Below are positions 507 through 35,411 of a DNA stretch of 64,000 bases, in pieces. The notes beneath the pieces are model-generated. The model was not told the DNA's origin, did no database searches, and worked only from the letters and a program-made list of their open reading frames with translations. The translations under genes were made by a program, and so were the position numbers. Every line of letters starts with the position of its first letter. Within the stretch, counting starts at the first letter, position 1. Source of the stretch: Aequorivita vladivostokensis (GTDB taxonomy: Bacteria; Bacteroidota; Bacteroidia; Flavobacteriales; Flavobacteriaceae); assembly GCF_000952855.1 (NCBI RefSeq), contig NZ_JSVU01000005.1, forward strand, positions 1 through 64,000, given 5' to 3'.

Positions 507-1520
507 TCAATCGTTCAAAAGTTTTATCCAACGCTGTTTTACTTTTTCCCAATCAAACCCTTCCGTTTTGAGGCGGGCATTTTTTGCCAGCTCCCGTGCC
601 TTTACATCATTTGAGCAAATGGCCTCGATAGCGTTTACAAAAGCCTCTGGATTGTTTGGAGGGACTAAAAGGCCGTTGACATTATTTTCAATCAAAAAAG
701 GCAAACCGCCCACATTTGTAGTAACCACGGGCATTCCCAAAGCCATCGCTTCCATTACGCTTAGGGGCATATTGTCGAAATTGGTGGTATTTATAAAAAT
801 GTCAAAATCCTTTGACAGCGCTATCCATTCCTTTTTCTTCAACATGCCGGTAAAGGTAATGGGCAGCTGCAGTTCTGCCGCAATTTTTTGGCAGCGCTGA
901 AGGGAACCGTCCTTGTCGGGGCCCACCATACAGAGGGAAACATCCATCCCTTTCCTTTTTAGCATTTCAACTATCTCCAAAGCCATCAATGGATTGTATA
1001 GTTCCGAAAAGGAACGCACCCATAATAGCTTTGGGGTGATGGAGGGTCTGGTCTTAAACGGATAGTTCTTTATTTCTATGGCATTCGGGATGCAAATAAT
1101 GTTGTGAAAGCCTGCGTCCCTAAATTGATGGAGCAGATATTCTGAAGGGGCAACATTTATATGTGCCTTTCCAAAGAGGGTATCGCTCAAGCCGTTGCTC
1201 GGCTTTAACCGGATAGGCAGGTTTCCACCGTGAAGGACGGGGATATAGGGCAAGGTGAACAGTCTGCACAAACTGGCAACAATTACCGCATAATAAAAAT
1301 TTTGGGTACTGTAGGTATCGATCAAAACCATTGTTACCCGCTTTCTGTTTTTAATGGTGGTAATTATCATGTCCCATAACCGAAATAGCTTATTGCGCTT
1401 TGAGGAAGCTGTTATCACGGTATAGCCCTCCGCCTCCAATTTTGCCGGAAGTCGATCTATGGCCGTAGGGTTCTTGCCATGGACGGCCAGTTTATTTCCT
1501 ATGTAGAGGATTTTTTTCAA
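507..1520 (-). CDS. Glycosyltransferase, GT4 type
   Basis: A 337-residue cytoplasmic or membrane-associated glycosyltransferase of the GT-B fold. The C-terminal Rossmann half shows the family pattern around residues 240-290: DIFINTTNFDNMPLSVMEAM, then LGMPVVTTNVGG and NGLLVPP, which is the E-x7-E nucleotide-sugar binding region of GT4 enzymes. It transfers an activated sugar to a growing lipid-linked glycan; donor and acceptor cannot be read from sequence. It is the last gene of the large minus-strand locus, 8 bases after the preceding membrane-protein gene, so it is very likely cotranscribed. Start ATG at 1520 (MKKILYIGNK). Confidence 0.9.
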   Translation of the reverse strand: MKKILYIGNKLAVHGKNPTAIDRLPAKLEAEGYTVITASSKRNKLFRLWDMIITTIKNRKRVTMVLIDTYSTQNFYYAVIVASLCRLFTLPYIPVLHGGNLPIRLKPSNGLSDTLFGKAHINVAPSEYLLHQFRDAGFHNIICIPNAIEIKNYPFKTRPSITPKLLWVRSFSELYNPLMALEIVEMLKRKGMDVSLCMVGPDKDGSLQRCQKIAAELQLPITFTGMLKKKEWIALSKDFDIFINTTNFDNMPLSVMEAMALGMPVVTTNVGGLPFLIENNVNGLLVPPNNPEAFVNAIEAICSNDVKARELAKNARLKTEGFDWEKVKQRWIKLLND

Positions 1521-1528
1521 GTAAATAG

Positions 1529-3112
1529 TTATTGAAGCGTATATAGAAACTGGTTTCCTATTTTCTTTTCTAATCGCAAAGCATCTGTTTCTTCATTTAA
1601 AAGCATGTAATCAACCCCTCTTTCTTTTAAATACCTTAACCTTTCTGCCTCAGAGGCCGCTTTTAAATAGAAGCGGTCCCGATGCCATTCGATGAGTTTT
1701 TGCGGATTGCCTTCAACCAAAATGTTTGCCCCCTTACTATCAAACCGAACCGAACGCTGGGCAGCGGTGCGCAAATAGTAGTTTTTATAAAATACGGCAG
1801 CAACAGGTGTATTTTCCTTGATATAATTTGCCATTTTATCAAAATCTGTTTTCCGTTCCGATAGGGGTTTAAAGACCTCAGAGAAATTAGGAACAATGGA
1901 ACGGCTAATGTCATCACCAATTAAGGGAACCTTGTTAAAAAATGGCGAATGGGAAATTGTCAAGATTAGCAAGTAGCTTGCAAAGCCATAAGAAATAAGC
2001 TGTTCGTCGATTATGTGCTTATCAACGAGCAGTACCAACAAATATCCCATTGCCAGATATGCTGGCAGAACAACCATTTTTTGGATACGTACCAGTTGGA
2101 AAGACATCCTTAAATTTATGCCCAAACCCTTGTTTAATGCCTGTTCTACATATATGCTCAAAACGGGCAGAAAAAATATTGCTCCTGTTAAAACCAACAG
2201 TATTGCGGCTTCTTTTCCATAAGTATTGGACTTAGAAAATCCGTAGAAAATAAAAACCACAAGAGGAACCAAGAAAAATAAGAATTTTGTTTTCAGCCAT
2301 GATTTAAAGACCAGATACACTTCTTGATAATGGGATGCTATTTTCGCATCAAATGCCGCCCCGTAGGCTTGAAGGTCATAAAAAACCGCGGTATCGGTTT
2401 TTCCAAAATACGTTACAACAAAGGGAAGCATCCCCGTGATAACCAATAGAACGCCTAAACTTATTTGCTTAAAGCTACATTTGGCATATTTAAAATAACA
2501 CCCACAGCACACCACCATAAAAAATATAAGGATTCCGCCCAAACCTGAAATTGGGTGAAAATTAAAAATAAGGCCTATGAGAATGCTGGCGGCATAAAAA
2601 TGTAAATTTTTCCTTTGAAACAATACTAAAAAGGGAATTGGCATTAAAGCGATATACAGCGTTCGCGGCATTATGGTCCATAAATCTGAAATGCCCCAAA
2701 TTTCGCCCGCGGGCAGCCATACGATGCCCCGCATTAAAATTGAAATAAGGAGTGCGATCCAAAATTTATTCCTGAATAACTTAAAGAGCAGGAAGAACCA
2801 GCAAATGCCGAACATCAGGCTTGAAATGAACAGTAAGATGTTTGAGACCTGCACGTAGTTTCCATCTGTAAAACCGGCAAACACCCTTAAGGTCTCTATA
2901 AAGAATGGAGTGTAGAATTTAAAATTGGTTGTGTCAGTCAAAAATAAGTCGTTGGGATATAGTTCCGGATTGTCCAGTTTCATACACATGGGTACTATAT
3001 TCTGCATATCGGAGGACAATTGGGAATAACCGACCCCGATATTTTTGACAAAGAAAGAAGTAGCTATCAAAAAGTTTAACGACAACACTAAAAAAATATG
3101 CTTTTTAGCCAT
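1529..3112 (-). CDS. Polytopic membrane protein of a polysaccharide locus, function unknown
   Basis: About 527 residues with roughly ten hydrophobic segments and a soluble C-terminal domain of about 110 residues (from LSERKTDFDKM onward) containing YKNYYLRTAAQRSVRFDSKG and a terminal YMLLNEETD segment. This layout resembles uncharacterised membrane proteins or GT-C-like transferases that recur in O-antigen and EPS clusters. I see no firm catalytic motif. The frame is open upstream to a TTG at 3145, but the ATG at 3112 (MAKKHIFLVLSLNFL) starts exactly at the first hydrophobic helix and overlaps the upstream gene by only 8 bases, so I prefer it. A sugar transferase or modification role is inference only. 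Confidence 0.75.
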   Translation of the reverse strand: MAKKHIFLVLSLNFLIATSFFVKNIGVGYSQLSSDMQNIVPMCMKLDNPELYPNDLFLTDTTNFKFYTPFFIETLRVFAGFTDGNYVQVSNILLFISSLMFGICWFFLLFKLFRNKFWIALLISILMRGIVWLPAGEIWGISDLWTIMPRTLYIALMPIPFLVLFQRKNLHFYAASILIGLIFNFHPISGLGGILIFFMVVCCGCYFKYAKCSFKQISLGVLLVITGMLPFVVTYFGKTDTAVFYDLQAYGAAFDAKIASHYQEVYLVFKSWLKTKFLFFLVPLVVFIFYGFSKSNTYGKEAAILLVLTGAIFFLPVLSIYVEQALNKGLGINLRMSFQLVRIQKMVVLPAYLAMGYLLVLLVDKHIIDEQLISYGFASYLLILTISHSPFFNKVPLIGDDISRSIVPNFSEVFKPLSERKTDFDKMANYIKENTPVAAVFYKNYYLRTAAQRSVRFDSKGANILVEGNPQKLIEWHRDRFYLKAASEAERLRYLKERGVDYMLLNEETDALRLEKKIGNQFLYTLQ

Positions 3113-4055
3113 TTTCAAAACTCTTTGGGGTTCGGAATATATCAAATTGTATAGCCTGTAATATAAGCTGAAACCCCAAAATTATCAGTAACGCACTGAT
3201 CATGATGGTTCCGAGTGGGGTAAATTGGTTTGCGCTGGAGTAGTGGTACCAATTATATCCACCAAACACAACACCTCCCAAAAATAACGGGAAACCGAAG
3301 AGAAGATAGATTGTCCCGATATTAAAATCGTACACAAAATAGCTTTTCCAAATGCGGTCAAAAAAGGTTTTAAGCAGATTTAAGGAAAAGTGGAGCGGCA
3401 TTTTAAAAAGATTCATATTCGATTTTTCATCGCCATAAATTGCGGGCATGGCGATTTCCTCGATACTTGCCTTTTGATGATAAAGGGCCGCTATAAGCGA
3501 GGTTTCAAAGTAATAGTTGTTGGAAAGTGATGTTGTGTCAATCATTTTCAGGCTTTCGGAATCTATTGCAAAAAAACCGTTGTTGAAATCAAAACAGTTC
3601 CAGTAGCCCGTTGCGGCCTTGCTTAAAAAGGAGAGCCAGAGATTTCCAAAGCGTCGTAGCGCAGGCATTTCCTTCAAGGCCTTAAAATCGCGAAAACGGT
3701 TTCCTTTTACAAACTGAGATTCTCCTGATAAAATAGCGTCAATCATTTTAGGTATATAAGAAGTATCCATTTGGTCATCGGCATCTAGTTTAATAACTAC
3801 TTTGATATTTTCTAACTGTTGCAGATATTCAAAACCTCGTTTTGTAGCACCTCCCACCCCAAGATTCTCTGAGTTTTCAATTATGATAATTTGAGGAATA
3901 GAATTAAAAACTGCTGGAAGTGGTTGGGGGCTTTTATCATTTATAATCACAATAAAATTGGAATACACTAATGCTTTTTGAACCACAAGTTGAATTTGGG
4001 CTGCAGCATTGTAATATGGAATTACTATTCCTGTAACATTTAGTTGGGATGCCAT
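3105..4055 (-). CDS. Glycosyltransferase, GT2 type with C-terminal membrane helices
   Basis: 316 residues. A GT-A fold GT2 domain covers residues 1-220: VIPYYNA near the N-terminus, NLGVGGATKRGFEYL at about 64-78, and the metal-binding aspartates in IKLDADDQMD at about 88-97. Two hydrophobic stretches near residues 245-305 look like paired transmembrane helices, as in dolichol-phosphate-mannose-synthase-like or GtrB-like enzymes that glycosylate polyprenyl phosphate. It follows the polymerase/ligase-like gene with no intergenic base. Polyprenyl-phosphate-sugar synthesis is possible, but a chain-extending role is not excluded. Confidence 0.88.
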   Translation of the reverse strand: MASQLNVTGIVIPYYNAAAQIQLVVQKALVYSNFIVIINDKSPQPLPAVFNSIPQIIIIENSENLGVGGATKRGFEYLQQLENIKVVIKLDADDQMDTSYIPKMIDAILSGESQFVKGNRFRDFKALKEMPALRRFGNLWLSFLSKAATGYWNCFDFNNGFFAIDSESLKMIDTTSLSNNYYFETSLIAALYHQKASIEEIAMPAIYGDEKSNMNLFKMPLHFSLNLLKTFFDRIWKSYFVYDFNIGTIYLLFGFPLFLGGVVFGGYNWYHYSSANQFTPLGTIMISALLIILGFQLILQAIQFDIFRTPKSFENG

Positions 4056-5339
4056 TTAGGTTGATTTTCTTAACGGTATGGTGAGCAATACAGTTATAGC
4101 CATAAAAAGGCCTAAAATACCAAATAATGGTCTATAAACATATAAATGCTCTCCAAAATAAAGGGTTATCAAAAGCGCAATTATCAAACCATTTAGAGCG
4201 AGCTGAAAGCCGGGCATTTTTCTTTTTACGATTACCATAAAGGAAAACATCCACCGCAAGAAAAGTATCAGGCCCACCAAGCCCACTTCGTTAATGAGCG
4301 ATAGATACAGGTTATGAGCGGAGGAGCCAACTCCCAATCTATTATTAAATCCTCTCCCAAAAGGAATTATAAAAGGGTTATTGAGTAAATACTTTACATA
4401 CATCATATGTAATTCTGCCCTGCCAGCACCAAGTTCATCATAAACACCCGTAAAATCCTCGTAACTAGTTAGGTCTTCTGGACCGTCTATAGCATATGCC
4501 ACCCTATCTTCCAAGGTAGCTGAGATACGATCCATCACAATTGAACTAGAATTTATTAAAATCAAAAATAAAATGCCACCTATTATCCCAAAAATCACGA
4601 AATGACCAGTTTTTGTAAGAAAAAAATATAACAAGAAAAAAATTGCACCCACATAACTTGTACGCGAGCCACTGAGGAGAATACAAATAGCTGCCAAACC
4701 TATGCCTGTATAGAGCAGTATTTTATTAGTTTTAATCTTTTTCTCACTATTCAAACCTATTAAAAATATAAACGAAATCAGCATAGTCATACCCAAAACT
4801 ATCTTATTGGGTCCCAAGGTGCCAGATAGAAATCCGTGATAAGAAATTTCATACAGTCTACTCCATAAGAAAGGTATTATCCCAATATTTTGAAGAATAA
4901 CCACTATGCCTACTGCAATAATCAATAATATTATAAACAATAAAATATTTCGATAACGTTTAATCGAACTTAAGTGATAATATAAAAAAACTGCCCCTAA
5001 GAAAAATACCCACATATGATAGAGGTATAAAAAACTTTGGACAAACCACATAATCCTATTTTTTAGAATTGAAAAAAATAATGTAAGTAAAATAGAAAAA
5101 CTACAATACATCAAAAAATAATGAAATCGTCGAAAAAATATCACATTAGATATTTCTTGTGAAATAATTCGATAATTGATAAAATATTGATAGAAGAAAA
5201 AAACTCCTAGAAAATCATATAGTCGCAATTCATTATCTCCCTTTAGAGAATAATACATTACAGGCAAATTATAGAAATAACTAAATATCAAAAGCCACAG
5301 CACCAATCTAAAAAAGGGCTTTCCTGTCAATTTCTCCAA
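4056..5339 (-). CDS. O-antigen polymerase/ligase-like membrane protein (Wzy/WaaL superfamily)
   Basis: 427 residues, about 11-12 transmembrane segments. The superfamily hallmarks are visible: LLSGSRTSYVGAIFFLL in the middle, a large periplasmic loop (DRISATLEDRVAYAIDGPED onward), and SSAHNLYLSLINEVGLVG near residue 345, the conserved H-N-L-x-L-x3-x-E-x-G-x-x-G block. Members either polymerise repeat units (Wzy) or ligate glycan to an acceptor (WaaL); sequence alone does not decide. Since the locus also carries an ABC exporter, ligation is worth considering. The first start codon is TTG at 5339; no ATG occurs before residue 28. It sits between two glycosyltransferase genes. Confidence 0.88.
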   Translation of the reverse strand: MEKLTGKPFFRLVLWLLIFSYFYNLPVMYYSLKGDNELRLYDFLGVFFFYQYFINYRIISQEISNVIFFRRFHYFLMYCSFSILLTLFFSILKNRIMWFVQSFLYLYHMWVFFLGAVFLYYHLSSIKRYRNILLFIILLIIAVGIVVILQNIGIIPFLWSRLYEISYHGFLSGTLGPNKIVLGMTMLISFIFLIGLNSEKKIKTNKILLYTGIGLAAICILLSGSRTSYVGAIFFLLYFFLTKTGHFVIFGIIGGILFLILINSSSIVMDRISATLEDRVAYAIDGPEDLTSYEDFTGVYDELGAGRAELHMMYVKYLLNNPFIIPFGRGFNNRLGVGSSAHNLYLSLINEVGLVGLILFLRWMFSFMVIVKRKMPGFQLALNGLIIALLITLYFGEHLYVYRPLFGILGLFMAITVLLTIPLRKST

Positions 5340-5370
5340 TATTTTCCTATTTCTCCGGATAATCTATTTT

Positions 5371-6513
5371 TTATCTGAAAATTTCACTAAAAATTCTATC
5401 TCTATAATTTTGGTATGTAAATTTTACCGCAAGCTGATAATTTATATTTATCATAGCGTCAAATTTTTCTGCCGTCACTTTAAAACTCGCATATAAACTT
5501 TTCGTTATGCCGGCAACATCAATACTATCTAATAAAAAACCGTTTCGACCATGTTCGATATATTGGTCTATGCAAGAAATGTTCGAGAGAATTGGAATAC
5601 AACCAAAATTCATCGCCTCACCGATAACTTTTGGAAAACCTTCACTTTGCGAGGGCAAAATTATAAAATGACAAATCTCATAAATTTTTACTAACTCTTC
5701 TTTGGATATAGCTCCGTGAAAAAATACGGAAATTTTCAATTTATCAGCTAGGTTTTCCAGCTCTTGTCTCAAATTTCCCTCTCCCACAATATGGAGTTTT
5801 GCCAAATTCTGGTGAAGGTCCATAGCCAGCAATGCCTTAATAAGTAACAAACAACCTTTGTTCGAATTCAACCCTCCCACAAAACAATAATTAATTGTTG
5901 AGGATAATTTCTTTTGACATACTACCATTTTACCATCTCTCCTATCCTTTTCATCTATGCACGGATTTTCAAAAGCTTTTATATTATTGGGCTGGTCAGG
6001 CCAGATGCCATTGACTGTCACTATCGCATTATTGTTTAAATTTTGAAGCCATTTTCGCTGTAGCTTGTAAGACAATGATGAAGCTCCTTTCCAATCGCCT
6101 GCATATTTAAACCAAAATTTTTTTTTGGGAAAAAAAAGGGAGAGAAACATAGCAATTATGGCAGGATTGGATGGCGCCCTTGAATGGATAAATTCAGCTT
6201 TAAGTATTTCCTTATATAGAATCCAAAAATATTGTGGATATTGGATTAAAATATCCAATTTATTACGAATTCCCTTTCCTCCCGTATTTTTAAGGGTTTT
6301 TATTTCAATTCGTTTATCTACAATTTTCATATACGCCCTATTCCCTTTTTGGTCTGGTCTATTAAAACCTATCCAAATAATCTTCTTAAAAAACTCAAGT
6401 TCTTCAAGCTCTTTCACTACGGGTCCAAAACCATAAAAGTCTTCTTTCTCTCGAAATATTCCCGTGTCGGAGATAACTAAGAGCTTAAAATACGGTTGTA
6501 AATTTTCAGACAT
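5371..6513 (-). CDS. Glycosyltransferase, GT4 type
   Basis: 380 residues, GT-B fold. The acceptor half starts FKLLVISDTGIF. The donor half contains INYCFVGGLNSNKGCLLLIKAL at about residue 208 and the E-x7-E block ILPSQSEGFPKVIGEAMNFG at about 290-310, followed by HGRNGFLLD. This is diagnostic for GT4 retaining transferases, although the sugar is unknown. It overlaps the end of the preceding gene (6477-7535) by 37 bases, with its start ATG at 6513, which suggests translational coupling. Confidence 0.9.
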   Translation of the reverse strand: MSENLQPYFKLLVISDTGIFREKEDFYGFGPVVKELEELEFFKKIIWIGFNRPDQKGNRAYMKIVDKRIEIKTLKNTGGKGIRNKLDILIQYPQYFWILYKEILKAEFIHSRAPSNPAIIAMFLSLFFPKKKFWFKYAGDWKGASSLSYKLQRKWLQNLNNNAIVTVNGIWPDQPNNIKAFENPCIDEKDRRDGKMVVCQKKLSSTINYCFVGGLNSNKGCLLLIKALLAMDLHQNLAKLHIVGEGNLRQELENLADKLKISVFFHGAISKEELVKIYEICHFIILPSQSEGFPKVIGEAMNFGCIPILSNISCIDQYIEHGRNGFLLDSIDVAGITKSLYASFKVTAEKFDAMININYQLAVKFTYQNYRDRIFSEIFR

Positions 6514-7535
6514 TTTTTAAAGTAATTTTCTTCAGAATAAGTCTCCAAATATAATTGATATAACTCACTGCTGTAGGTATTCATAATATTAAAATCCTTG
6601 TGATATTGAACAATTGATTGGACCCAATGTTCACAATTATTATCATGTTTAACAAGTTCGGGTATTTTTTCTATAATGCGTTTTGCTACGGCTCCAGTAT
6701 TATAAATAAGAATAGGTAACCCAACGCTCAGACATTCTACTGCTGCTAAAGGTCCTGATTCGGACAGAGAGGGATGTATTGCCAAGGAATAATTTATCAA
6801 TTGACTCTGAATGTCGAGCTCTCCTTGGATAATTTGAAGTTTATTTTCATCTACCAACATTTGGATTACGTTTTTGTTTTCTAAAAAATATGACTTCTCG
6901 ATTGAATTTACATATATGTCGCAGGAATATTCCGGTGGAAGTCTCTCAAGAATTTCAAAAAGAAAAGAATAATTTTTTATTCTCCTAAAATTTCCTATTG
7001 CCACCAATTTTTTTCTATTGGGTTGTAAGTCAACTCGCAATTTTGAGCTTCTTACAATATTTTCTAATAAAGAAATGGGGATTCCCTTAGGGAAAAAATA
7101 TTTTTGTTCTTCTGAAACAACAATTGTGGCATCTACTTTTCGGATTAATCTAAGCAAATACCCTTTCTCTTTAAAATTAGCCTCCAATTCTAATAAAGAA
7201 TGGTCGTGGTAAACCACCCGGAACGATCTATATACTTTTGGCAAAAACAATAAAAGCCCCACATACCTAAGGATATGCCTTGAATGTATATGGACGATAT
7301 CAAATTTTTGTAAAAGATGGTAGAGCTTGTTTATCATAAAAGGGTTGAATTTATTTTTTCTTCCCAAATAATATATTGGTATGGCCGAATGTAGTTCGCT
7401 GTCCAGTTCAGATTTATTTAATAAACAAAGGACACTTACGTCCATATTATTTTCAAATAAGATATTTGAAAGATTAATCAAAACCCTTTCGGCTCCACCA
7501 ACGTCTAATTTGTCAATAATCTGAAGTACTTTCAT
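6477..7535 (-). CDS. Glycosyltransferase, GT4 type
   Basis: 352 residues from the ATG at 7535 (MKVLQIIDKLDVGGAERVLI). The GGAERVL element near residue 12 is the typical acceptor-side signature of GT4 enzymes in EPS loci. The C-terminal half shows LAIHPSLSESGPLAAVECLS and VGLPILIYNTGA, a somewhat divergent E-x7-E region. The start codon overlaps the upstream stop as TGATG, so the two are probably translationally coupled. Substrate unknown. Confidence 0.9.
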   Translation of the reverse strand: MKVLQIIDKLDVGGAERVLINLSNILFENNMDVSVLCLLNKSELDSELHSAIPIYYLGRKNKFNPFMINKLYHLLQKFDIVHIHSRHILRYVGLLLFLPKVYRSFRVVYHDHSLLELEANFKEKGYLLRLIRKVDATIVVSEEQKYFFPKGIPISLLENIVRSSKLRVDLQPNRKKLVAIGNFRRIKNYSFLFEILERLPPEYSCDIYVNSIEKSYFLENKNVIQMLVDENKLQIIQGELDIQSQLINYSLAIHPSLSESGPLAAVECLSVGLPILIYNTGAVAKRIIEKIPELVKHDNNCEHWVQSIVQYHKDFNIMNTYSSELYQLYLETYSEENYFKKCLKIYNRILSS

Positions 7536-8866: not shown

Positions 8867-8876
8867 TTTCTCTTTA

Positions 8877-9935: not shown

Positions 9936-9970
9936 TGTTTCTGCTGCTATATTAGAATGCTTCTTTTTTT

Positions 9971-10052: not shown

Positions 10053-10074
10053 GGAAATATTCTATAATATTGAC

Positions 10075-12283: not shown

Positions 12284-12291
12284 GTTCTTTA

Positions 12292-13143: not shown

Positions 13144-13147
13144 TAAT

Positions 13148-15831: not shown

Positions 15832-15838
15832 GAAAACC

Positions 15839-26611: not shown

Positions 26612-26627
26612 TTTGCAATTTTCGTAA

Positions 26628-27740
26628 CTATTCGTGGTAGTCCAAGGTGTCATGGCCCGCTTCCCGCAAATACTTTTCTTTTCTAAACAGCTTTAAATCT
26701 GATTCCATCATTTCAGCAACCAAGGCCTCCAAGGTGTATTTTGGATTCCAGTTCAGCTTTTCCTTGCACTTGGTGGCATCGCCAATCAATAAGTCCACTT
26801 CGGTTGGGCGATGGTAGTTTGGATCTATCTTAACTACTTCCTTTCCTCTTGGCAATTGATATTCTGGAATGCTACAGGAAACCACTGTACCGATTTCCTT
26901 TTCCTTTTCGCCACTAAAATTTAGGGTCACCCCTACTTCCCCAAACGCCATTTGCACAAATTCACGTACTGAAGTGGTTTTCCCCGTGGCAATTACATAG
27001 TCATCGGGCTCATCCTGTTGCAGCATCAACCACATAGCCTCCACATAGTCTTTGGCATGACCCCAATCCCTTCTGGCGTTTAGGTTGCCAAGATACAAAG
27101 TGTCCTGCATTCCCAAAACAATCTTTGCCGTGGCACGGGTAATCTTTCGGGTTACAAATGTTTCGCCGCGTAAAGGAGATTCATGATTGAAGAGAATCCC
27201 GTTACAGGCAAAGATGTTATAGGCTTCCCTGTAATTTACCGTAATCCAATAGGCATACAATTTTGCCACACCATACGGGCTTCGCGGGTAAAAGGGGGTT
27301 TTCTCGGTCTGGGGCACTTGCTGTACCAGGCCATAAAGTTCCGACGTGGAGGCTTGGTATATTTTTGTCTTTTCCGTTAAGGCCAATAAACGCACTGCCT
27401 CCAATATTCTTAAAGTGCCCAGCCCATCCACATTGGCGGTATATTCCGGGGTATCAAAACTCACCTTTACGTGCGACATGGCCCCGAGGTTGTATATTTC
27501 ATCGGGCTGTACTTCCTGAATAATACGCGTAAGGTTCATGGCATCGCTCAAATCGCCATAATGCAATTTAAAGCAGATGTCCTTTTCGTGGGGGTCTTGG
27601 TATAAATGATCTATTCTATCGGTGTTAAATGAGGAAGCCCTTCTCTTTATACCGTGCACCTCATAGCCTTTGGTCAATAACAATTCAGCCAAGTAAGCAC
27701 CATCCTGTCCCGTGATTCCTGTTATTAAGGCTTTTTTCAT
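26628..27740 (-). CDS. gmd: GDP-mannose 4,6-dehydratase
   Basis: About 370 residues from the ATG at 27740 ([20 protein letters not shown]). The ORF opens earlier, but the extra 17 residues overlap the upstream gene. The [12 protein letters not shown] Rossmann motif, [34 protein letters not shown] (YxxxK) and [18 protein letters not shown] are family signatures. It makes GDP-4-keto-6-deoxy-D-mannose, the branch point towards GDP-fucose (fcl) or GDP-perosamine (aminotransferase at 29530). It is 4 bases from the preceding GT4 gene. Confidence 0.95.
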
Positions 27741-27744
27741 TTGT

Positions 27745-28920
27745 TTATTTAGATATTGCTTCATAAACTTTTGAAATTTTGGAAGCTGCATTATTATTAC
27801 TTATTTTTTCTGCCTGTACATTTAGCAAAGCTATATTTTCTTTTCTGTAATTTAAATCGAACCATATTTTATTGATTTTATCGGCAATATCAACAATATC
27901 CTTCGGATTAAAAACAAAACTTTCATCACCTATTGTTTCGGGCAAGGAAGTGACATTGGAGCACACCACTGGAATTCCCATTAAAATACTTTCCATAAGC
28001 GGAAAACTTCCTGCCTCATATAAGGTTGGTATTACTACTGCTCTACATTTATGGTACAGTTCAAACAAAACCTCATCTGAAACAATACCGAGAAATTTTA
28101 CTTGTTTTGAGAGTTTTTCTGATTCTAAATATGGCAAAATATTTTTTACATAATGGTCATTCTGATGTCCCGTACAAACTAGATATATTTCAGGGTCATC
28201 TAAACATTTCATTGCTTCGAGCAAACGAAGATGATTCTTATGTGCCCAAGTGGCCGCTGGATAAAGTAAGAATTTATCAGGTAACAGATAAGCATCCAAT
28301 AATCCAGTATCTCGAATTACTATTTTATCGAACCATAAATCTTTCATGTCCAATAAGACGGTAAAAACTTCATTTTCTGGCTTCTCAAAGTAATTGACTA
28401 TATCTTGTTTTACATGTTTATAACTAACTATTACTGCATCCGCTCCATCGATGGCTCTTTTATAGTTTACAGCTCTGTAGGCTCTTTGGGCTGAAGTGAA
28501 AAATTCTGGGAAATGTAATTCTTGTACATCGTGCAAAGTAGTTATACTTTTTACATTTGGTTTTTTGACTAAAGATTGAAATGGGGTATGGATTATATCA
28601 ATATCATGCTTTCTTACTATCACATCATATATATCTTCTTTTTTAAATCTTTTTTTTAGGCCAAGAACACGAAAAACTATATTTACTATTCTGAAAGCTA
28701 AAAGCTTCTTCTTTGAGTATGTAGGATTAGAAACTGATACTAAAGTAAAGTTTGAATTGGCATTTACAATTATTTTTACATCCTCATCTGGTTTATGACA
28801 AAAGATAAAAAAGTCATGCGGTAAATTTCCAGTTGCCAAAATATTCAATAAGGCTAATGAATATTGATACACCCCACCCTGGGTTTTACTCAGTTTGGGT
28901 ATGTCTAATAGAATATTCAC
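27745..28920 (-). CDS. Glycosyltransferase, GT4 type
   Basis: 391 residues, GTG start at 28920 overlapping the stop of the acetyltransferase gene (GTGA). Starts [20 protein letters not shown]. The donor half shows [20 protein letters not shown] at about residue 216, [20 protein letters not shown] and [20 protein letters not shown], a classical GT4 block resembling mannosyl- or rhamnosyltransferases of the WbaZ type. Sugar not assigned. Confidence 0.9.
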
Positions 28921-29528
28921 GCAATTTTTTTTACTGGATTACCAACATATACTCCAGGCTCCTTAATTGATTTAACTACAACTGCGTTTGCACCAATAGT
29001 AACGTCGCTACAAATTTCTATTTTATCTACTACAACAGCTCCCGCACCTATAAAACAATTGCTGCCAAGGGTGGCTCTTCCGCATATTATTGCTCCCACG
29101 GATATATGATTATGAGAGCCAATAACAACCTCGTGTTCAATGATAGCTCCTGTATTTATTATATTATTATCTCCAAAAATTACATTCGAATTACTAAATG
29201 TATTTGCGAAAAATAAATTTGACACACCCAGTATTACAGTGTTATCTATAAAACTCGTTGGATGGCATATGGTTTTCTTTAAAACATTTTTTCTGTATAA
29301 CAAGAACAATTCTCTTCTTTTAATATTATCACCAACGGCGAGTACAATTTTACCTGTATAATTGTAACTTTCAATATCCCCTATTAATTTAACTGAATTG
29401 ATTATCTCGATGTTGTTCTTATTAAAAGATTCGTCATAGATGCCAACAACTTTAATGTTACAAGCTTTCAGCAATGAAATAACTGACCTTGCCTGCCCTC
29501 CAGCTCCAATTAAATATAATTGTTCCAT
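28917..29528 (-). CDS. PglD/NeuD/PerB-like sugar O- or N-acetyltransferase
   Basis: 203 residues from the ATG at 29528 (MEQLYLIGAGGQARSVISLL). N-terminal Rossmann-like sugar-nucleotide binding part with GAGGQARSV, then a left-handed beta-helix of hexapeptide repeats (ISVGAIICG, IGAGAVVVD, IGANAVVV) ending in [12 protein letters not shown] histidine in GAIIEHEVVIGSHNH is a candidate catalytic base. The start is one base after the aminotransferase stop, so the pair probably acts in sequence to make an N-acetylated amino sugar. PerB-like (GDP-perosamine) is my preferred reading. Confidence 0.85.
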   Translation of the reverse strand: MEQLYLIGAGGQARSVISLLKACNIKVVGIYDESFNKNNIEIINSVKLIGDIESYNYTGKIVLAVGDNIKRRELFLLYRKNVLKKTICHPTSFIDNTVILGVSNLFFANTFSNSNVIFGDNNIINTGAIIEHEVVIGSHNHISVGAIICGRATLGSNCFIGAGAVVVDKIEICSDVTIGANAVVVKSIKEPGVYVGNPVKKIA

Positions 29529-29529
29529 T

Positions 29530-30621
29530 TTAAAAGGTTTTAAGTGCTGTTGTAATTTGTAAAACATCTTCTCTATTCAGTTCAGGAAAACTTGGCAAAT
29601 TCATACCACGCCTAGCCAATCTGTCCGCTACTTGATGTTTTTCGTACTTTTTGAAATATATCGGCATTGTGTGTATAGGATAAAACATAGGCCGTGTTTC
29701 TATTCCTTTATCAATTAAAAATTGTTTTAGGTCATCCCTATCCATTTCTTCAGGAAGTAGTATTGTATTCATCCAATATGAATGGAATACATCTCCAGAT
29801 TCGCTGTGAAAAACAAAAGGAGTATCCTTCAAAAACTCTCTGTACCAATCTGCGATTTGCCGTTTTTTAGATAGTACACTGTCAATTTGTTCCAATTGGG
29901 CAACACCAATGGCCGCACAGATATTTGTCATTCTATAATTATATCCAACTGCATCATGCCAATACTCCCGATACTTGGCCAATCCCTGTCCCTTCAAATG
30001 GACAATCCTATCGTGAAGTGCACCATCATTGGTTAAGACCATACCGCCCTCACCAGTGGTTATTGTTTTATTTCCATAAAAACTAAAAGTAGCAACATCG
30101 CCAAAAGTCCCCACATGTTGTCCTTTGTATTTAGAGCCTATGGCTTCTGCGCAATCTTCAATAAGAAATAAATTATGATCATCACAAAGCTTTTTTAATG
30201 CTTCCATATTACAAGGATGCCCATAAAGATGGACTGCCATAACAGCTTTTGTCTTCGATGTGATTTTGCGCCTAACATCTTCGGGATCAATCTGCCAAGT
30301 ATGCTCCAAAGAATCAACAAATACTGGTTTCGCATTAGTATAGGTTATTGAATTAACAGAGGCTATATAAGTTAATGTAGGCACTATTACTTCATCACCC
30401 TCTCCAATTCCTAATCCCAATAACGCTAAGTGTAAGGCTACTGTTCCATTGCTTACAGCTGTTCCATACTTAGTTCCGACAAAATTTGAAAATTGATCCT
30501 CAAATAGATTTACAAATTTACCTTTACTTGAAATCCAAGAAGAATCAAGACATTCATTGACATACTTTTTTTCATTCCCATTCAAACTGGGTTGATATAC
30601 GGGATATTTAATAGCTACCAT
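29530..30621 (-). CDS. DegT/DnrJ/EryC1-type aminotransferase, GDP-perosamine synthase-like
   Basis: 363 residues, PLP-dependent. The presumed Schiff-base lysine lies in FSFYGNKTITTGEGGM at about residue 185, with TVSNGTVALHLA-type PLP loop and IEDCAEAIGS at about residue 154. From memory, the sequence resembles V. cholerae RfbE (perosamine synthase) over nearly the full length, including YPVYQPSLNGNEKKYVNEC, the GNKTITTGEGGM block and the NYRMTNICAAIGVAQLEQID block. With gmd in the same operon the substrate is plausibly GDP-4-keto-6-deoxy-mannose. The exact sugar is inferred, not demonstrated. Confidence 0.85.
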   Translation of the reverse strand: MVAIKYPVYQPSLNGNEKKYVNECLDSSWISSKGKFVNLFEDQFSNFVGTKYGTAVSNGTVALHLALLGLGIGEGDEVIVPTLTYIASVNSITYTNAKPVFVDSLEHTWQIDPEDVRRKITSKTKAVMAVHLYGHPCNMEALKKLCDDHNLFLIEDCAEAIGSKYKGQHVGTFGDVATFSFYGNKTITTGEGGMVLTNDGALHDRIVHLKGQGLAKYREYWHDAVGYNYRMTNICAAIGVAQLEQIDSVLSKKRQIADWYREFLKDTPFVFHSESGDVFHSYWMNTILLPEEMDRDDLKQFLIDKGIETRPMFYPIHTMPIYFKKYEKHQVADRLARRGMNLPSFPELNREDVLQITTALKTF

Positions 30622-31574
30622 TATAGTTCTTCTATTTTATTAGTTCTAGTATTAAATACATCAAGTCCCTTTATTATATCTAAACGTTCACTACCTCTTA
30701 AATAGGTAAGTTTCCCTTCCTTATTTCTTGATTCCCTAAATTTGGATTCTACATAACCTTCTTCAGCTGTTAATGGCTTCAAGTCTTTCAAATGATTATT
30801 CTTTACAAAATAAGCATTATTTCCCGTGCTATTACTGCCAATAAAGGTGAAGCCTTTTTCTTTTGCCAAATCACATAAAGCCGCAATGGAAGCACCCGCA
30901 TACAGATTGCTATAATGCGCATCAGTTCTAAAAAAATCTGACCTATAAGGTACAGTTATAGATCGATCACTACCAAACACACTGTTGTATTCAACAATCA
31001 TAATAATGGGTTCAACAATATGTAAGGCTTTCCATATCCAATAATCATTACCGTCAATATCAATATGCAATAATCCAATTTCCCCCTTAAACCCTACTTC
31101 TTCAATTAAAGAGTTTATATTTTCTGATGTTATAAACGCAGATTTAGCTATCAAATCATATTTCCAATAAAAATCAGATTTTTTAATTTTATCCACATTA
31201 GTTGAACTTCCGTCCATTACCAAACCCGTCCAATTGTTATTCATTAGTAAATATCGAGTATTAGACTCTAAATAATTTTCTACACCAAACTCAATAAAAA
31301 CCTTATTACCAATTTCTAAATAGTTAATTAGATATTGAATAATTCCATCATCGCCCCATTGAGAAAAAACTTTAAATTCAGTGTCTTGTATTGAAGAAAT
31401 ATTTTTTTTGCGTAAAATATTCTCTAACAAAATTTTTCCATTTTGAAGCATAGTGTTTTCTAATAAACTGTCAAATATGCCATTTTGCTTCTTAACTTTT
31501 TCAAGGGTATCAGTAACCCTATTATATCCTAATATTTTATTTTTTACCTTTTTTAACATATAACAATCGACCAT
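30621..31574 (-). CDS. FkbM-like or unclassified SAM-fold protein of the polysaccharide locus
   Basis: About 317 residues from the ATG at 31574 (MVDCYMLKKVKNK); the frame opens at a TTG at 31586, and an ATG at 31559 is another candidate. The core FIEFGVENYLESNTRYLL and GLLHIDIDGNDYWIWKAL resembles FkbM-like methyltransferase folds, but motif I is altered (EFGVENYL, lacking the usual glycine-rich loop), so catalysis is uncertain. I do not recognise it as a characterised family. It sits between a GNT-I-like glycosyltransferase and the perosamine synthase gene. Strongly AT-rich. Confidence 0.6.
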   Translation of the reverse strand: MVDCYMLKKVKNKILGYNRVTDTLEKVKKQNGIFDSLLENTMLQNGKILLENILRKKNISSIQDTEFKVFSQWGDDGIIQYLINYLEIGNKVFIEFGVENYLESNTRYLLMNNNWTGLVMDGSSTNVDKIKKSDFYWKYDLIAKSAFITSENINSLIEEVGFKGEIGLLHIDIDGNDYWIWKALHIVEPIIMIVEYNSVFGSDRSITVPYRSDFFRTDAHYSNLYAGASIAALCDLAKEKGFTFIGSNSTGNNAYFVKNNHLKDLKPLTAEEGYVESKFRESRNKEGKLTYLRGSERLDIIKGLDVFNTRTNKIEEL

Positions 31575-31582
31575 TCTATATC

Positions 31583-32542
31583 TCAAACTAATTTTAGAGA
31601 CTTCAATCCATTTTTAAGTAGAACTTTTAATTTTTTTAAAGCCTTTTGTGGAGTCTTTGATTGGGATTTTTTGCTTTTTTTAATCAAGCGCAACTCAAAG
31701 CTCTGTTTTACCAAAGCAACTAATTTATTGTTCAATGTTAGCGCTAATGGTTCAACTTTAATTTCATTGTTATTAATATTAATAATACTAAAAAAATTAT
31801 CTGTTTTACAGTGGATTCCCGAGTTGTCAAAACCAATATTCCGAACCAAAGATTTATTTGGGAAAAGAAAAAAACCCTTGTTTAAGAACATAGAAGCATA
31901 AAAACGGATAGCCCAAGAATCGTTTTTAGATTTAATTTGGTCTTCCAGCATTTCATAATACGGATAATTACCGAAATTAATTTTACTTTTTAATTGATTG
32001 GCATCTATCGCGGTTTTTAATTGTCTCGAATCAAAATTTACTTTTTTCCATCGATCTGCCCAGGTAGCATAACTCCATGAACTTCCTATAGGCAAAAAAT
32101 ATGTCGGTTCTTCAATTTTAGTTATTGAGGGGTACGAGTATCCCGAAACCCCAAAAACCTGCGATTCATTCTCATACAGTTCCAGCGCATCATTCATAAA
32201 CTTTAAAAAATAAGTTCCCGTAAGTATATCATCCTCCAAAACAATAACGCGCCCATGCTTTTCAATAACCTCAGTTACACCTTTGATTACGGATTCAGCC
32301 AAACCCAAGTTTTGGTCTCTTTCCTTAATTATTATTTCCTTGCACCAGTGCTTTTTCCTGATTACACCGCGGACCTCTTCTATTTTGGTTAGGTCCACGG
32401 GCGAAGCATCTTTTTTCGGGCCATCGCTAAAAATATACAAGACGCTTTGATCTGCCAATAGATTTATGGACAAAGCTTCCAATGTCTGTTCTGTGTGCCA
32501 AGGACGGTTGTAAACGAATAATATTATTGGGGCTAATTTCAT
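31583..32542 (-). CDS. GNT-I-like glycosyltransferase
   Basis: About 319 residues from the ATG at 32542 (MKLAPIILFVYNRPWHTEQT). The segments VYIFSDG-type, NLGLAESVIKGVTEVIEKHG and VIVLEDDILTGTYFLKFMND place it near the GNT-I-like (GT13-related) family found in bacterial glycan loci. The LEDDIL is the likely nucleotide-sugar/metal motif at about residue 104. Specificity is unknown. A 12-base gap separates it from the methyltransferase gene upstream; the downstream gene begins just before its stop. Very AT-rich. Confidence 0.82.
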   Translation of the reverse strand: MKLAPIILFVYNRPWHTEQTLEALSINLLADQSVLYIFSDGPKKDASPVDLTKIEEVRGVIRKKHWCKEIIIKERDQNLGLAESVIKGVTEVIEKHGRVIVLEDDILTGTYFLKFMNDALELYENESQVFGVSGYSYPSITKIEEPTYFLPIGSSWSYATWADRWKKVNFDSRQLKTAIDANQLKSKINFGNYPYYEMLEDQIKSKNDSWAIRFYASMFLNKGFFLFPNKSLVRNIGFDNSGIHCKTDNFFSIININNNEIKVEPLALTLNNKLVALVKQSFELRLIKKSKKSQSKTPQKALKKLKVLLKNGLKSLKLV

Positions 32543-32554
32543 TAACATCAATTA

Positions 32555-33253
32555 TTAAATATCTAATACATTCGGATTTTTATAATAAACTGAAGTACAT
32601 TTTTTATAAAATAAACCAGGGGATATTCCCCAAAAATCCAAGCTTTTAAATCCATCTTCTTTGAGCTTATCAATTCCTAATTGATAGGAAATTCTTTCGG
32701 AATCATCAAGAATTAATACACCATTATCCTTCAATGATTCTATTGAATTAATAATACAGTTGACTCTATCTCTTCCATCAACTATAATAACGTCGAATTT
32801 CAAGTCTTTCTTTTGGGAAGTAAGAGAATATTCTCCTCCATATTCTAATTCTACATTTTCTATCATAACATTTTTCGGAAGTGTTTGTGACACTTTATTA
32901 AACCAATCAATATCATGTTCAACTGTATAAACTTTTTTTACTTTTGAACTATAATATATCGTTGAATTTCCAGATCCATATTCGAATATAATCATATTCT
33001 TATTCAGTCGATTTTCTATAAAATCAATAAAGCTATACGTAACCCAAGGCAATGCTTTACTATCCAAATCTAATGGTGATTTTGTTTCCCAAGATTTCCA
33101 CCAACCCTTATCATAAAGAAATCCATACCTCAAATGTTTCAGTGCTTCCTTTTCTGACGGTAATAATACGGTTGCTAGTATTTTATTTTTACTTACATAT
33201 CTAACAGTATATTTTAATAAATGTTTCTTTACTAAATATTTAAACTTTTTCAT
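32555..33253 (-). CDS. Putative class I SAM-dependent methyltransferase
   Basis: 232 residues. Motif I is MIIFEYGSGNSTIYYSSKV at about residue 86, then VYTVEHDIDWFNKVS (acidic motif II), FDVIIVDGRDRVNC and NGVLILDDSERISY. The pattern is that of a Rossmann methyltransferase (Methyltransf_24-like). The target is unknown, and it may modify a sugar or the exported chain end. It is the first gene after wzt, 11 bases downstream, so it is expressed with the ABC exporter. Start ATG at 33253. Confidence 0.78.
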   Translation of the reverse strand: MKKFKYLVKKHLLKYTVRYVSKNKILATVLLPSEKEALKHLRYGFLYDKGWWKSWETKSPLDLDSKALPWVTYSFIDFIENRLNKNMIIFEYGSGNSTIYYSSKVKKVYTVEHDIDWFNKVSQTLPKNVMIENVELEYGGEYSLTSQKKDLKFDVIIVDGRDRVNCIINSIESLKDNGVLILDDSERISYQLGIDKLKEDGFKSLDFWGISPGLFYKKCTSVYYKNPNVLDI

Positions 33254-33264: not shown

Positions 33265-34545
33265 TTAATAAAATTCATGCTTTACTAAAATATGCCCCTG
33301 ATTTACCGGAATAACACGTCCTGTATTGAAGAAATCTCCATTCTCTACTTCAAATGAGCCCGCATTCATAACCCAATCGGAAACACTTCCATCTTGACTC
33401 GCAAAGAGTGTGAAATAGTAATGTCCAGACTGAAAAGGATTTGTGGGGACAAAAATTTTTATCAATTTGGTTTCGTGAGAATCAAAACTAATTAGTTGAT
33501 TTGTTAAGTCATTACTGTATATGGTAATTCGTCTTGCTTGGTCATCATCTATACCAACAGAAATTCTGATGTTATGAACGTGACTCTTAGAAGTATTTTC
33601 AATTTTTAAAACCATAATATAAGCAATTCCAGATGGAATTATGTGGATCCTTTCACAGTCAAAATTTTCAAACCAATAATCCAGAAATTTTAAGCTTCCG
33701 TCTCCTTTTCTATCCGTTCTCAATGATAGTTCCTGAGCGACTTCTTCATTTCTGAATTTTTTTAGATAATAACTAATTACGTTTTCAGTATCTCCTATAA
33801 CATCAACAACACCATTATTCAAAAGCATAACACGTGTGCATAGGTTTTGGATCGAAGCCATATTATGGCTTACAAACAAAACGGTTCTTCCGTTACCTGT
33901 TGATATATCTTTCATCTTGTCTATCGCCTTCTTCTGAAACTCGGCATCACCTACCGCCAGCACCTCATCAACCACCAAAATATCCGGCTCCAAATGCGCG
34001 GCAACGGCAAAGGCCAAACGCACGGTCATTCCACTGCTATAACGCTTTGTTGGGGTATCTATATACATTTCGCAACCCGAAAATTCCACAATCTCATCGA
34101 GTTTGGCGGTTATTTCGGCGCGTGTCATTCCCAGAATGGCTCCGTTTAAATAAATATTTTCCCGTCCCGTAAGCTCGGGATGAAAACCCGTCCCCACTTC
34201 CAGTAAACTGGCTATTCGTCCTTTAGTTTTAATTACGCCCGTAGTAGGGCTCGTAACTCTTGAAAGAATTTTAAGCAAAGTAGATTTCCCCGCCCCGTTT
34301 TTACCGATAATACCGAGTACTTCTCCTTCCTGCACTTCAAAATTGATATCGCGTAGCGCCCATACGTATTCTTCCTTGCCCTTACTGCTCCGGTCGTTTA
34401 CCGCCCCCACTTTTAAATAAGGATCTTCCTTGCCACGTATCTTATGCCAAAAACGATTGAAATCATGCTTAATAGTTCCGGTACCTACTTGCCCCAGGCG
34501 ATACTGTTTGCTAATATTTTCAGCCTTTAGAATAATATTTTTCAT
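33265..34545 (-). CDS. wzt: Polysaccharide ABC transporter ATP-binding protein
   Basis: 426 residues. Nucleotide-binding domain with Walker A VLGIIGKNGAGKSTLLKIL at about residue 76, ABC signature RYSSGMTVRLAFAVAAHLE at about 167, and Walker B ILVVDEVLAVGD. The last 180 residues form a beta-rich Wzt C-terminal type domain (FFNTGRVIPVNQGHILV near the end) that in the E. coli O9a/O8 systems binds the modified non-reducing end of the glycan. Start ATG overlaps the wzm stop (TAATG). The 3' half of the gene is markedly AT-richer than the 5' half, suggesting a chimera. Confidence 0.9.
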   Translation of the reverse strand: MKNIILKAENISKQYRLGQVGTGTIKHDFNRFWHKIRGKEDPYLKVGAVNDRSSKGKEEYVWALRDINFEVQEGEVLGIIGKNGAGKSTLLKILSRVTSPTTGVIKTKGRIASLLEVGTGFHPELTGRENIYLNGAILGMTRAEITAKLDEIVEFSGCEMYIDTPTKRYSSGMTVRLAFAVAAHLEPDILVVDEVLAVGDAEFQKKAIDKMKDISTGNGRTVLFVSHNMASIQNLCTRVMLLNNGVVDVIGDTENVISYYLKKFRNEEVAQELSLRTDRKGDGSLKFLDYWFENFDCERIHIIPSGIAYIMVLKIENTSKSHVHNIRISVGIDDDQARRITIYSNDLTNQLISFDSHETKLIKIFVPTNPFQSGHYYFTLFASQDGSVSDWVMNAGSFEVENGDFFNTGRVIPVNQGHILVKHEFY

Positions 34546-35411
34546 TATACCGTATCAATAAATGATTTTTCCGTTCTATTGAAAATTACCAAACCTAATA
34601 AAAACAGCGCTATGCTAATAATTAAAACATAGAAAAATCCTATCCAACTAAAACTACCCGTATCCAGAAGCATGTATCGAAAACCTTCTATAGTTTGGGT
34701 TAGAGGATTATATGCCACTAAATCTGCGGCATAGTCCGGCAGCTTTTTTCTCGCCTCGGAAAGCGGGTAAGGCACGGCAGAAACGTACATTAATAAAGAA
34801 ACCGCAAAACCCACCAAGACATTTAAATCTCGATACTTGGTGGTCATGGAACTGATGGTCATTCCAAGACCGAGCCCCAGCAAAGCCATCATTACAATAT
34901 AAACAGGAAAAAGAAGTAAATGCAAGTTTGGACTTAATTGAAACCCCTGTAATAAATAATAACAATAAAAAATAATAAATATCAATAATTGGATTCCAAA
35001 TTTCATCAGGTTGCTAATGGTAACCGACATAGGCATAATGACCCTTGGAAAATACACCTTTCCAAAAATTCCTGCATTGCTCCTAAATGTATTGGAAGTT
35101 CCCGTGAAACAGGCCGTAAAGTAATTCCAAGCCGTAATCCCGGCAAGGTTAAAAAGAAATGGAGGTACACTACCCGTACTAATACTTCCCAAATTGTTGA
35201 ACACCAAGGTAAAGATAACCGAAGTAAAAAGAGGCTGGATAAAATACCACAAAGGTCCAAGAATAGTCTGCTTATAGACTGTTGTTATATCCCGTTTTAC
35301 AAAGAGTATAAGCAGGTCGCGATAGCGCCACACTTCCTTTAGGTTAAGATCAAAAGCTTTCTTTTCAGACGAAATCTCGTAAAGCCAGGTATCGTTTTCT
35401 TGGGGAGTCAA
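34545..35411 (-). CDS. wzm: Polysaccharide ABC transporter permease
   Basis: 288 residues with six predicted membrane segments, ABC2-type. Opens WRYRDLLILFVKRDITTVYKQ, the typical cytoplasmic gate helix and coupling segment, then ILGPLWYFIQPLF. It moves undecaprenyl-pyrophosphate-linked glycan across the inner membrane with wzt. The first start is a TTG at 35411 (TTG ACT CCC CAA), because the in-frame codon two upstream is a stop. It is the first gene of the locus, so the operon promoter should lie within the following 60 bases. An AT-rich TATATTAG element at 35434-35441 (minus reading) is a weak candidate. Confidence 0.9.
   Translation of the reverse strand: MTPQENDTWLYEISSEKKAFDLNLKEVWRYRDLLILFVKRDITTVYKQTILGPLWYFIQPLFTSVIFTLVFNNLGSISTGSVPPFLFNLAGITAWNYFTACFTGTSNTFRSNAGIFGKVYFPRVIMPMSVTISNLMKFGIQLLIFIIFYCYYLLQGFQLSPNLHLLLFPVYIVMMALLGLGLGMTISSMTTKYRDLNVLVGFAVSLLMYVSAVPYPLSEARKKLPDYAADLVAYNPLTQTIEGFRYMLLDTGSFSWIGFFYVLIISIALFLLGLVIFNRTEKSFIDTV

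Follow-up and report, generated by a model that had tools for sequence, protein, structure and literature searches.

What surface polysaccharide could be made by a long run of sugar genes in Aequorivita vladivostokensis, how would it leave the cell, and do all of the genes serve one product? The run occupies positions 507-35411 of a stretch of 64,000 nucleotides (contig NZ_JSVU01000005.1, positions 1 to 64,000; hereafter the window). Judged from its genes, it is a new representative of a known kind of locus, one for an O-antigen-like polysaccharide exported by an ATP-binding cassette (ABC) transporter. We consider it probable that the locus encodes an ABC-transporter-dependent, O-antigen-like surface polysaccharide, is built of two modules and lies at a variable site of the genus.

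Gene content, export system and two modules

The locus is compact. It contains 32 open reading frames (ORFs), all on the minus strand (a sequence-only reading had counted about 33 co-directional genes), with a coding density of 0.98 and a largest intergenic gap of 141 bases. The G+C content is 0.355, compared with 0.409 across 40000-64000. Several of the ORF starts are TTG or GTG, and real starts may be further in. The genes are listed from wzm onwards, with bits given as score versus family cut-off (GT, glycosyltransferase; G numbers, genomes of the genus; L numbers, fetched loci).

34545-35411, minus: Wzm, ABC-2 permease (PF01061, 66.1 bits; 91-93% identical in G001, G018 and G022)
33265-34545, minus: Wzt, ATPase (PF00005) with C-terminal carbohydrate-binding domain Wzt_C (PF14524, 34.9 vs 30.4)
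32555-33253, minus: methyltransferase-like, right behind wzt, candidate cap writer (weak Methyltransf_24, E=0.0064, 17.8 vs 26.3 bits)
31583-32551, minus: putative GT (no family above cut-off; 39% identical gene in L002)
30621-31586, minus: methyltransferase-fold protein linked to perosamine synthase (predicted structure, pLDDT 86)
29530-30621, minus: GDP-perosamine synthase, RfbE/PerA type (64% to E. coli RfbE; PDB 3bn1/3dr7)
28917-29567, minus: perosamine N-acetyltransferase, NeuD/PerB type (TIGR03570, 166.7 vs 160.8; best PDB match 4ea7)
27745-28920, minus: GT4, candidate perosaminyltransferase (relatives with at least 38% identity in 18 of 80 perosamine-synthase loci)
26628-27791, minus: Gmd, GDP-mannose 4,6-dehydratase (TIGR01472, 597.5 vs 415)
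25688-26653, minus: Fcl, GDP-fucose synthase (NF047922, 493.7 vs 500, just below)
24840-25679, minus: GT2 (PF00535)
23826-24779, minus: GT2 (PF00535)
22673-23800, minus: GT4 (PF00534)
20827-22668, minus: AsnB-type amidotransferase with glutaminase domain (TIGR01536, 335.9 vs 267.1)
19814-20737, minus: methyltransferase (Methyltransf_24, 32.9 vs 26.3; 80% identical in G019)
18920-19705, minus: sulfotransferase 2 (PF03567, Sulfotransfer_2, 44.7 vs 22)
18040-18909, minus: GT2 (PF00535)
17035-18036, minus: GT2/GT92-like (accompanies module A in G076, G015 and G023)
15839-17038, minus: GT4, module A (in fetched loci of 15/24 genomes)
14306-15697, minus: asparagine-synthetase-like without glutaminase domain, module A (PF00733, 31.3 vs 21)
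13148-14200, minus: GT4, optional part of module A (7/24 genomes)
12292-13143, minus: sulfotransferase 1 (Sulfotransfer_1-like, 21.6 vs 22), optional part of module A
11105-12283, minus: GT4 (GT4d), module A (21/24 genomes)
10075-10968, minus: FkbM methyltransferase, optional part of module A (TIGR01444, 85.8 vs 37.7; 2/24 genomes)
8877-9935, minus: GT47, exostosin-like, module A (PF03016, 43.7 vs 33.4)
7535-8914, minus: GT2, module A (20/24 genomes)
6477-7538, minus: GT4
5371-6513, minus: GT4
4056-5339, minus: Wzy_C membrane protein, candidate O-antigen ligase (PF04932, 40.6 vs 31.7)
3105-4055, minus: GT2 with hydrophobic C-terminal part, candidate lipid-P-sugar synthase (PF00535)
1529-3145, minus: hydrophobic membrane protein, candidate periplasmic sugar transferase (no family)
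507-1520, minus: GT4, last gene before the contig end (12/24 genomes)

This content agrees, within about one gene, with the inventory of the sequence-only reading (about 16 glycosyltransferases, gmd, fcl, RfbE-like and PerB-like enzymes, asparagine-synthetase-like proteins, a polymerase/ligase-like protein and Wzm/Wzt). Fifteen glycosyltransferases score above the Pfam cut-off; the sixteenth, 31583-32551, is putative, with one weak nucleotidyltransferase match (E=0.044) and no relevant PDB match. The four methyltransferase-like proteins start at 10075 (FkbM), 19814 (Methyltransf_24), 30621 (by fold model) and 32555 (a weak match below cut-off). The PDB folds closest to the model of 30621-31586 are S-adenosylmethionine (SAM) methyltransferases; its alignment, used as a PDB sequence query, gave no match. 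Members of its family, which has no Pfam match above cut-off, lie near a perosamine synthase in 11 of 80 loci, including Bacteroidota, an Anabaena and a Sericytochromatia record. There are two asparagine-synthetase-like proteins, one with a glutaminase domain (20827-22668) and one without (14306-15697). The two sulfotransferases are indeed unrelated, one matching Sulfotransfer_2 above cut-off and the other Sulfotransfer_1 just below it.

The export genes point to an ABC-dependent system with capped chains. The window has Wzm together with a Wzt whose C-terminal domain scores above the Wzt_C cut-off; in systems of this kind, as the cited passages describe them, chains receive a cap from a terminator, and the C-terminal domain of Wzt lets the capped ones through (PMC3482155, PMC9445017, PMC11231755). 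We found no flippase family and no initiating sugar-phosphate-transferase family among the 32 locus proteins by Pfam, a negative that is not absolute because four of them (starting at 1529, 30621, 31583 and 32555) have no Pfam family at E 0.001. Neither is expected in a locus for ABC export with chain initiation encoded elsewhere. The O-antigen locus of E. coli O157 resembles the window in its rfbE, whose product is 64% identical to the window aminotransferase, and presumably also in having gmd, fcl and an acetyltransferase gene. It differs in that a Wzx flippase gene lies beside rfbE, whereas the window has Wzm/Wzt with sulfo- and methyltransferases; with no flippase family in the 32 proteins, the locus does not conform to O157-type Wzx/Wzy assembly.

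Judged by gene distribution, the locus is a patchwork in which an exporter module adjoins a glycosyltransferase module that is widespread in the genus (module A, approximately 507-17038). We mapped the 32 proteins onto the fetched loci of 24 genomes (at least 40% identity and at least 60% cover; some stretches hold one module). Module A genes were frequent (GT4d in 21, GT2b in 20, AsnL in 19, GT47 and GT4f in 15 each, and GT4a in 12), in contrast to those of the perosamine half: perosamine synthase and Gmd were each in one, Fcl was in two, and the acetyltransferase, GT4h and the proteins starting at 30621, 31583 and 32555 were in the fetched loci of none. AsnB was likewise in none. In whole-genome searches of 28 genomes of the genus, that of the window among them, AsnL turned up in 20 and GT47 in 17; a close perosamine synthase was present in one of 23 congeners (G013, 65% identity). 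Outside the genus, a nine-gene core (Wzm, Wzt, the 30621 protein, perosamine synthase, acetyltransferase, GT4h, Gmd, Fcl and GT2e) keeps its order, sometimes with other genes intervening, in Flaviramulus sp. (L002) and two Christiangramia (L003 and L004). These three loci differ from the window in the Wzt C-terminal domain (no match, or 22% at best) and in the downstream genes, and no homologues of the window sulfotransferases were found within their fetched stretches at E 1e-8. The earlier claim of one unusual unit was thus not borne out: there are two modules with different distributions, the sugar core occurs in two other genera, and both sulfotransferases recur in the genus, sulfotransferases being optional parts of either module (sulfotransferase 1 of module A). 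Two modules would be the simplest account of the surplus of glycosyltransferases that does not call for one giant repeat, and module A probably makes either a shared part (core or linker) or a second glycan.

We weighed two other accounts of the locus. All 32 genes might make a single very long, heavily decorated repeat, as would suit the dense, one-strand layout; the modules also adjoin in G001, G002, G006, G009 and G010, and partly in G016 and G022. We set this aside as improbable on the module data: in G023 about 77 kb of a single contig separate module A from wzt, in G015, G012 and G018 the two lie on different contigs, module A occurs in genomes with no Wzt_C match (e.g., G004, G005 and G017), and just one congener of 23 has a close perosamine synthase. 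A stronger competitor, although still one that we think unlikely, is that the product is a capsule or exopolysaccharide made with the adjacent Wza/Wzc (46216-49610). These genes are syntenic with Wzm/Wzt in congeners and in L002-L005; within the limited stretches available, of the 11 congeners with Wzt_C that were mapped, five have an ABC-F/Wza/Wzc/UGD neighbourhood beside wzm and two others have just Wza/Wzc there. The Wzy_C ligase-family protein in the locus, Wzm/Wzt with Wzt_C, and the lack of a flippase family in the locus argue against a capsule.

Several observations count against the two-module, O-antigen-like reading that we favor. Wza/Wzc would be equally at home with a capsule and with an O-antigen. 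Window position 1 is also the first base of the contig, which cuts off the far end of the locus, and the membrane protein 1529-3145, which matched no family, could act as a transporter. The G013 perosamine synthase comes with Gmd and Fcl, so the perosamine half is not wholly private to the window, and G010 has a close Gmd (94%, with laxer cover) and Fcl (83%) with no perosamine synthase. A separate contig, as in G015, G012 and G018, is no proof of distance. Previously described ABC-exported O-antigens have simple repeats (a trisaccharide is called the first of its kind in a passage of PMC4483657), which are hard to square with 16 glycosyltransferases unless the locus makes two glycans. Finally, the candidate chain terminator 32555-33253 has, besides its Methyltransf_24 match below cut-off, one distant homologue (26%, right behind wzt in G001), and its structure model (pLDDT 37) is unusable.

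Predicted sugars and decorations

Perosamine, fucose and sulfate are well-supported predictions for the glycan. Over 357 residues, the aminotransferase 29530-30621 shares 64% identity with E. coli RfbE, which is annotated as GDP-perosamine synthase; gmd is close by at 26628. Its best PDB relatives are perosamine synthetases (3bn1/3dr7), as the best relative of the acetyltransferase is a perosamine N-acetyltransferase. As a control on RfbE, a DNA match was found in 307 of 5426 E. coli genomes, and all 8 among the matches listed are annotated rfbE. Gmd scores above and Fcl just below its NCBIfam cut-off, in line with the fucose that had been claimed. Genes to supply GDP-mannose and the sulfate donor, namely ones for a ManC beta-helix domain and for adenosine 5'-phosphosulfate (APS) kinase, are elsewhere in the genome. 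Given these family assignments and the two genes outside the locus, GDP-N-acetylperosamine, GDP-fucose and 3'-phosphoadenosine 5'-phosphosulfate (PAPS) are expected to be available.

The top NCBIfam profile for the aminotransferase is that of LegC (TIGR04181), which would make it an enzyme for a UDP-linked 4-amino sugar rather than for perosamine. Assignment to another sugar had been named as the outcome that would overturn the perosamine claim, and it did not materialize. The score of 390 bits is below the cut-off of 420, genuine E. coli RfbE behaves alike (392.9 bits), and no LegB was found above cut-off in the genome (11 weaker matches). Together with gmd in the same gene run and the identity to RfbE, these results leave the LegC assignment a very slim chance, and we set it aside. 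At least 50% identical gmd was present in the fetched flanks of 20 of the 80 perosamine-synthase loci.

Sulfation, also claimed earlier, is backed by motif conservation and the APS kinase. In sulfotransferase 2 (18920-19705), residues of the N-terminal P-loop-like and RN(P) motifs are largely conserved in all four sequences of an alignment with three relatives; in sulfotransferase 1 (12292-13143), the motif residues are invariant in all six sequences of an alignment with five relatives. We take these residues of both proteins to bind PAPS. Sulfotransferase 1 lies between GT4d and GT4e/AsnL in all five congeners with a strong homologue. A Sulfotransfer_2 protein together with a perosamine synthase does not look like a common pairing in other genera: searching 36 of the 80 loci (L002 excluded; 35 genomes) for this one family found it in one of 35 genomes. 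Methylation and amidation of the glycan are plausible from the gene content, and we infer an acidic product. The NCBIfam profile matched by 20827-22668 specifies asparagine synthase; a glycan amidotransferase of the WbpS type would amidate a uronic acid.

Based on homology, Gmd, RfbE and the NeuD/PerB-type enzyme would make GDP-N-acetylperosamine, and Gmd and Fcl would make GDP-fucose. The exporter-linked glycosyltransferases would assemble the chain in the cytoplasm, where it may then be decorated by sulfo-, methyl- and perhaps amido-transfer. A cap would close the chain end, to be recognized by the Wzt C-terminal domain for export through Wzm/Wzt, and the Wzy_C protein would probably ligate the exported chain. 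The most likely writer of the cap is the methyltransferase-like protein 32555-33253.

The gene immediately behind wzt

In all 12 loci surveyed in the genus, the gene behind wzt encodes a modification enzyme or, in the window, a likely one; in half of them it is a sulfotransferase. We surveyed 12 loci of the genus from a Wzt_C search (own included; 9 above the family cut-off), naming the gene behind wzt slot 1 (gap of -14 to +54 bases) and those that follow slots 2 and 3. Slot 1 held a methyltransferase in five loci (the window, G001, G002, G016 and G022), a sulfotransferase in six (Sulfotransfer_4 in G006, Sulfotransfer_3 in G009, Sulfotransfer_1 in G010, G012 and G023, and Sulfotransfer_2 in G015), a pyruvyltransferase in one (G018) and a glycosyltransferase in none; each assignment is above the Pfam cut-off except the window's own (17.8 vs 26.3). 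Slots 2-3 (23 genes, as G018 has no slot 3) held 10 modification enzymes (two called by fold or homology rather than by Pfam), 10 glycosyltransferases (three inferred, below or barely at cut-off) and 3 others. Modification enzymes were thus enriched in slot 1 (12/12 vs 10/23; Fisher p=8e-4), as were sulfotransferases (6/12 vs 3 of 152 other genes followed; Fisher p=3e-6). These tests take loci as independent; the 152 genes come from loci followed to unequal depths of 2 to 30 genes, and beyond slot 3 sulfotransferases were sought by known seeds and motif, so that unrelated families may be missed. G075, which came from a sulfotransferase search (slot 1 methyltransferase, slot 2 sulfotransferase), was excluded from the counts. 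Homologues of sulfotransferase 2 also sit behind wzt, in slot 1 (G015), slot 2 (G075) and slot 3 (G023).

The part of Wzt that would read the cap is variable as well. The Wzt ATPase domain is 84-88% identical in seven congeners and of a more distant type (43-46%) in five others, whereas the C-terminal domain has 31% identity at best and mostly no match, apart from a few weak extra matches by protein comparison. A changing cap would be expected to leave just such a pair, a reader domain and a neighboring modification gene that both vary. Most slot-1 genes do not resemble one another, and this favors separate replacements.

In the passages cited, the O-antigen chains of E. coli O8/O9a and Aquifex aeolicus end in methyl or methyl phosphate caps (PMC3482155, PMC9445017), and the export caps named overall are methyl, (methyl) phosphate and Kdo. 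The window would resemble these systems in having a chain-end cap read by the Wzt C-terminal domain, as inferred from its genes. Six sulfotransferases among the twelve slot genes point to sulfate caps, and the pyruvyltransferase to a pyruvate cap. Our tentative suggestion, which we hold with rather low confidence, is that in the genus and in scattered lineages (Bradyrhizobium, Aeromonas) the slot encodes an exchangeable cap writer, and that sulfate (and pyruvate) caps could license export via the Wzt C-terminal domain. Among titles and abstracts found in the open-licence literature, none proposed sulfate as an export cap. In the window a methyltransferase-like protein occupies the slot, so sulfate on the window glycan would be a decoration within the chain.

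The gene behind wzt may instead encode an in-chain decoration enzyme that is there by operon habit, to which we give about an even chance. Several comparisons favor this and tell against a cap writer. G010 and G012 have Wzt C-terminal domains that are 80% identical and slot-1 sulfotransferases that are dissimilar, and their slot-2 radical-SAM/pyruvyltransferase proteins (88% identical) could be the cap writers there. The domains of G006 and G075 are 49% identical with no slot gene in common, G002 and G016 have slot 2 in common and not slot 1, and L016 and L028 (domains 64% identical) differ in slot 1. Outside the genus, a methyl- or sulfotransferase is annotated in only 5 of 17 same-strand neighbors, and both window sulfotransferases are far from wzt. 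Against a habit of gene order stand the slot-1 enrichments of modification enzymes and of sulfotransferases.

Neither a strict nor a universal form of the cap-writer proposal was upheld. The Wzt C-terminal domain and the slot-1 gene were seen to travel together only in part: among the four strongest domain pairs in the genus (G010/G012, G006/G075, the window/G001 and G002/G016), the slot-1 genes are homologous in one pair and of like chemistry in three. In other genera, slot 1 matches within L003/L004/L005 and within L002/L016, and differs within L016/L028 and within L002/L008 (42% domain identity); these loci were picked by perosamine synthase, itself the slot-1 gene in L017, L028, L037 and L068. 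A universal rule failed in 20 plasmid neighborhoods outside the genus (20 of 60 matches listed, taken without a Wzt_C test, some without an adjacent permease; eight slot genes also classed by Pfam). Slot 1 was annotated there as methyltransferase (4), sulfotransferase (1, Bradyrhizobium, two in a row), acyltransferase (3), hypothetical (3), rfaE2-like (2), aminotransferase, nitroreductase, glycosyltransferase and purB (1 each), or lay on the opposite strand (3). The pattern is strong in the genus and partial beyond it.

The wbsalmo locus of Aeromonas salmonicida offers a likeness. It has Wzm/Wzt, and ORF19, which follows wzt, encodes a sulfotransferase-domain protein listed with role not known (PMC4483657, Table 2); the O-antigen structure reported there shows no residue to match. 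It differs in having rml (rhamnose) genes and a trisaccharide repeat, with no perosamine genes named in the passages cited (PMC4483657). One terminal sulfate per chain would explain a sulfotransferase gene without sulfate in the reported structure. The sulfated capsules of Cobetia marina KMM 1449 and Vibrio sp. KMM 8419 are alike in combining ABC export and sulfotransferases in one large cluster, and, as far as the cited passages go, differ in being of the group III capsule type, with sulfate in the repeat and PAPS genes in the cluster (PMC11766843, PMC11641403). Sulfated O-antigen repeats are themselves known, from Pseudoalteromonas marinoglutinosa (cited in a passage of PMC3210612).

Should sulfate and pyruvate prove to be caps, the end groups of many surface glycans that await study could be predicted from the gene behind wzt, and the unexplained A. 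salmonicida gene would have a role. The window locus itself is one more variable O-antigen-like locus, useful as that of a predicted sulfated, perosamine-bearing glycan.

Other genes near wzt were noted. A family of 435-442 aa lies right behind wzt in L003 (7597-8904), L004 and L005 (two Christiangramia and one Dokdonia); the L003 protein has no Pfam match, and the Wzt C-terminal domains of the three are also alike. Second behind wzt are proteins of 736-742 aa with radical-SAM and polysaccharide pyruvyltransferase domains in two congeners (L114:12513-14723 and L113:7814-10042), and one of 707 aa in G023 (L116:12730-14853) with methyltransferase-domain matches at 322-462 and 521-647. A plasmid of Bradyrhizobium sp. 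ISRA443 (Alphaproteobacteria; L177:1-6036) encodes asnB, a glycosyltransferase, wzm, wzt and two sulfotransferases, a congener-like layout.

Repeats and neighboring genes in the window

Two arrays of 7- to 22-base repeats (35494-35899 and 39195-39704), which share a 200-base stretch that is 87% alike and 3775 bases apart, bracket a cation-efflux gene, a DUF2231 gene and 38653-39300 (no family). In the congener G018, wzm adjoins an SdiA-like gene, with no match to the bracketed block in the stretch. Similar arrays are at 296-370 and elsewhere in the genome. The sequence of 1-299 recurs at four other genome sites with 95-100% identity, three of them contig starts, and its ORF is read as a transposase, by inspection without a family search. 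Farther from the locus, 51731-55252 encodes a PhoX-like protein of 1173 aa with PKD repeats and a Por secretion (type IX) C-terminal domain, and ~15 copies of a 13-base repeat (AGTCGCAGTTGAC) at 61045-61243 run across the end of an ABC-ATPase ORF.

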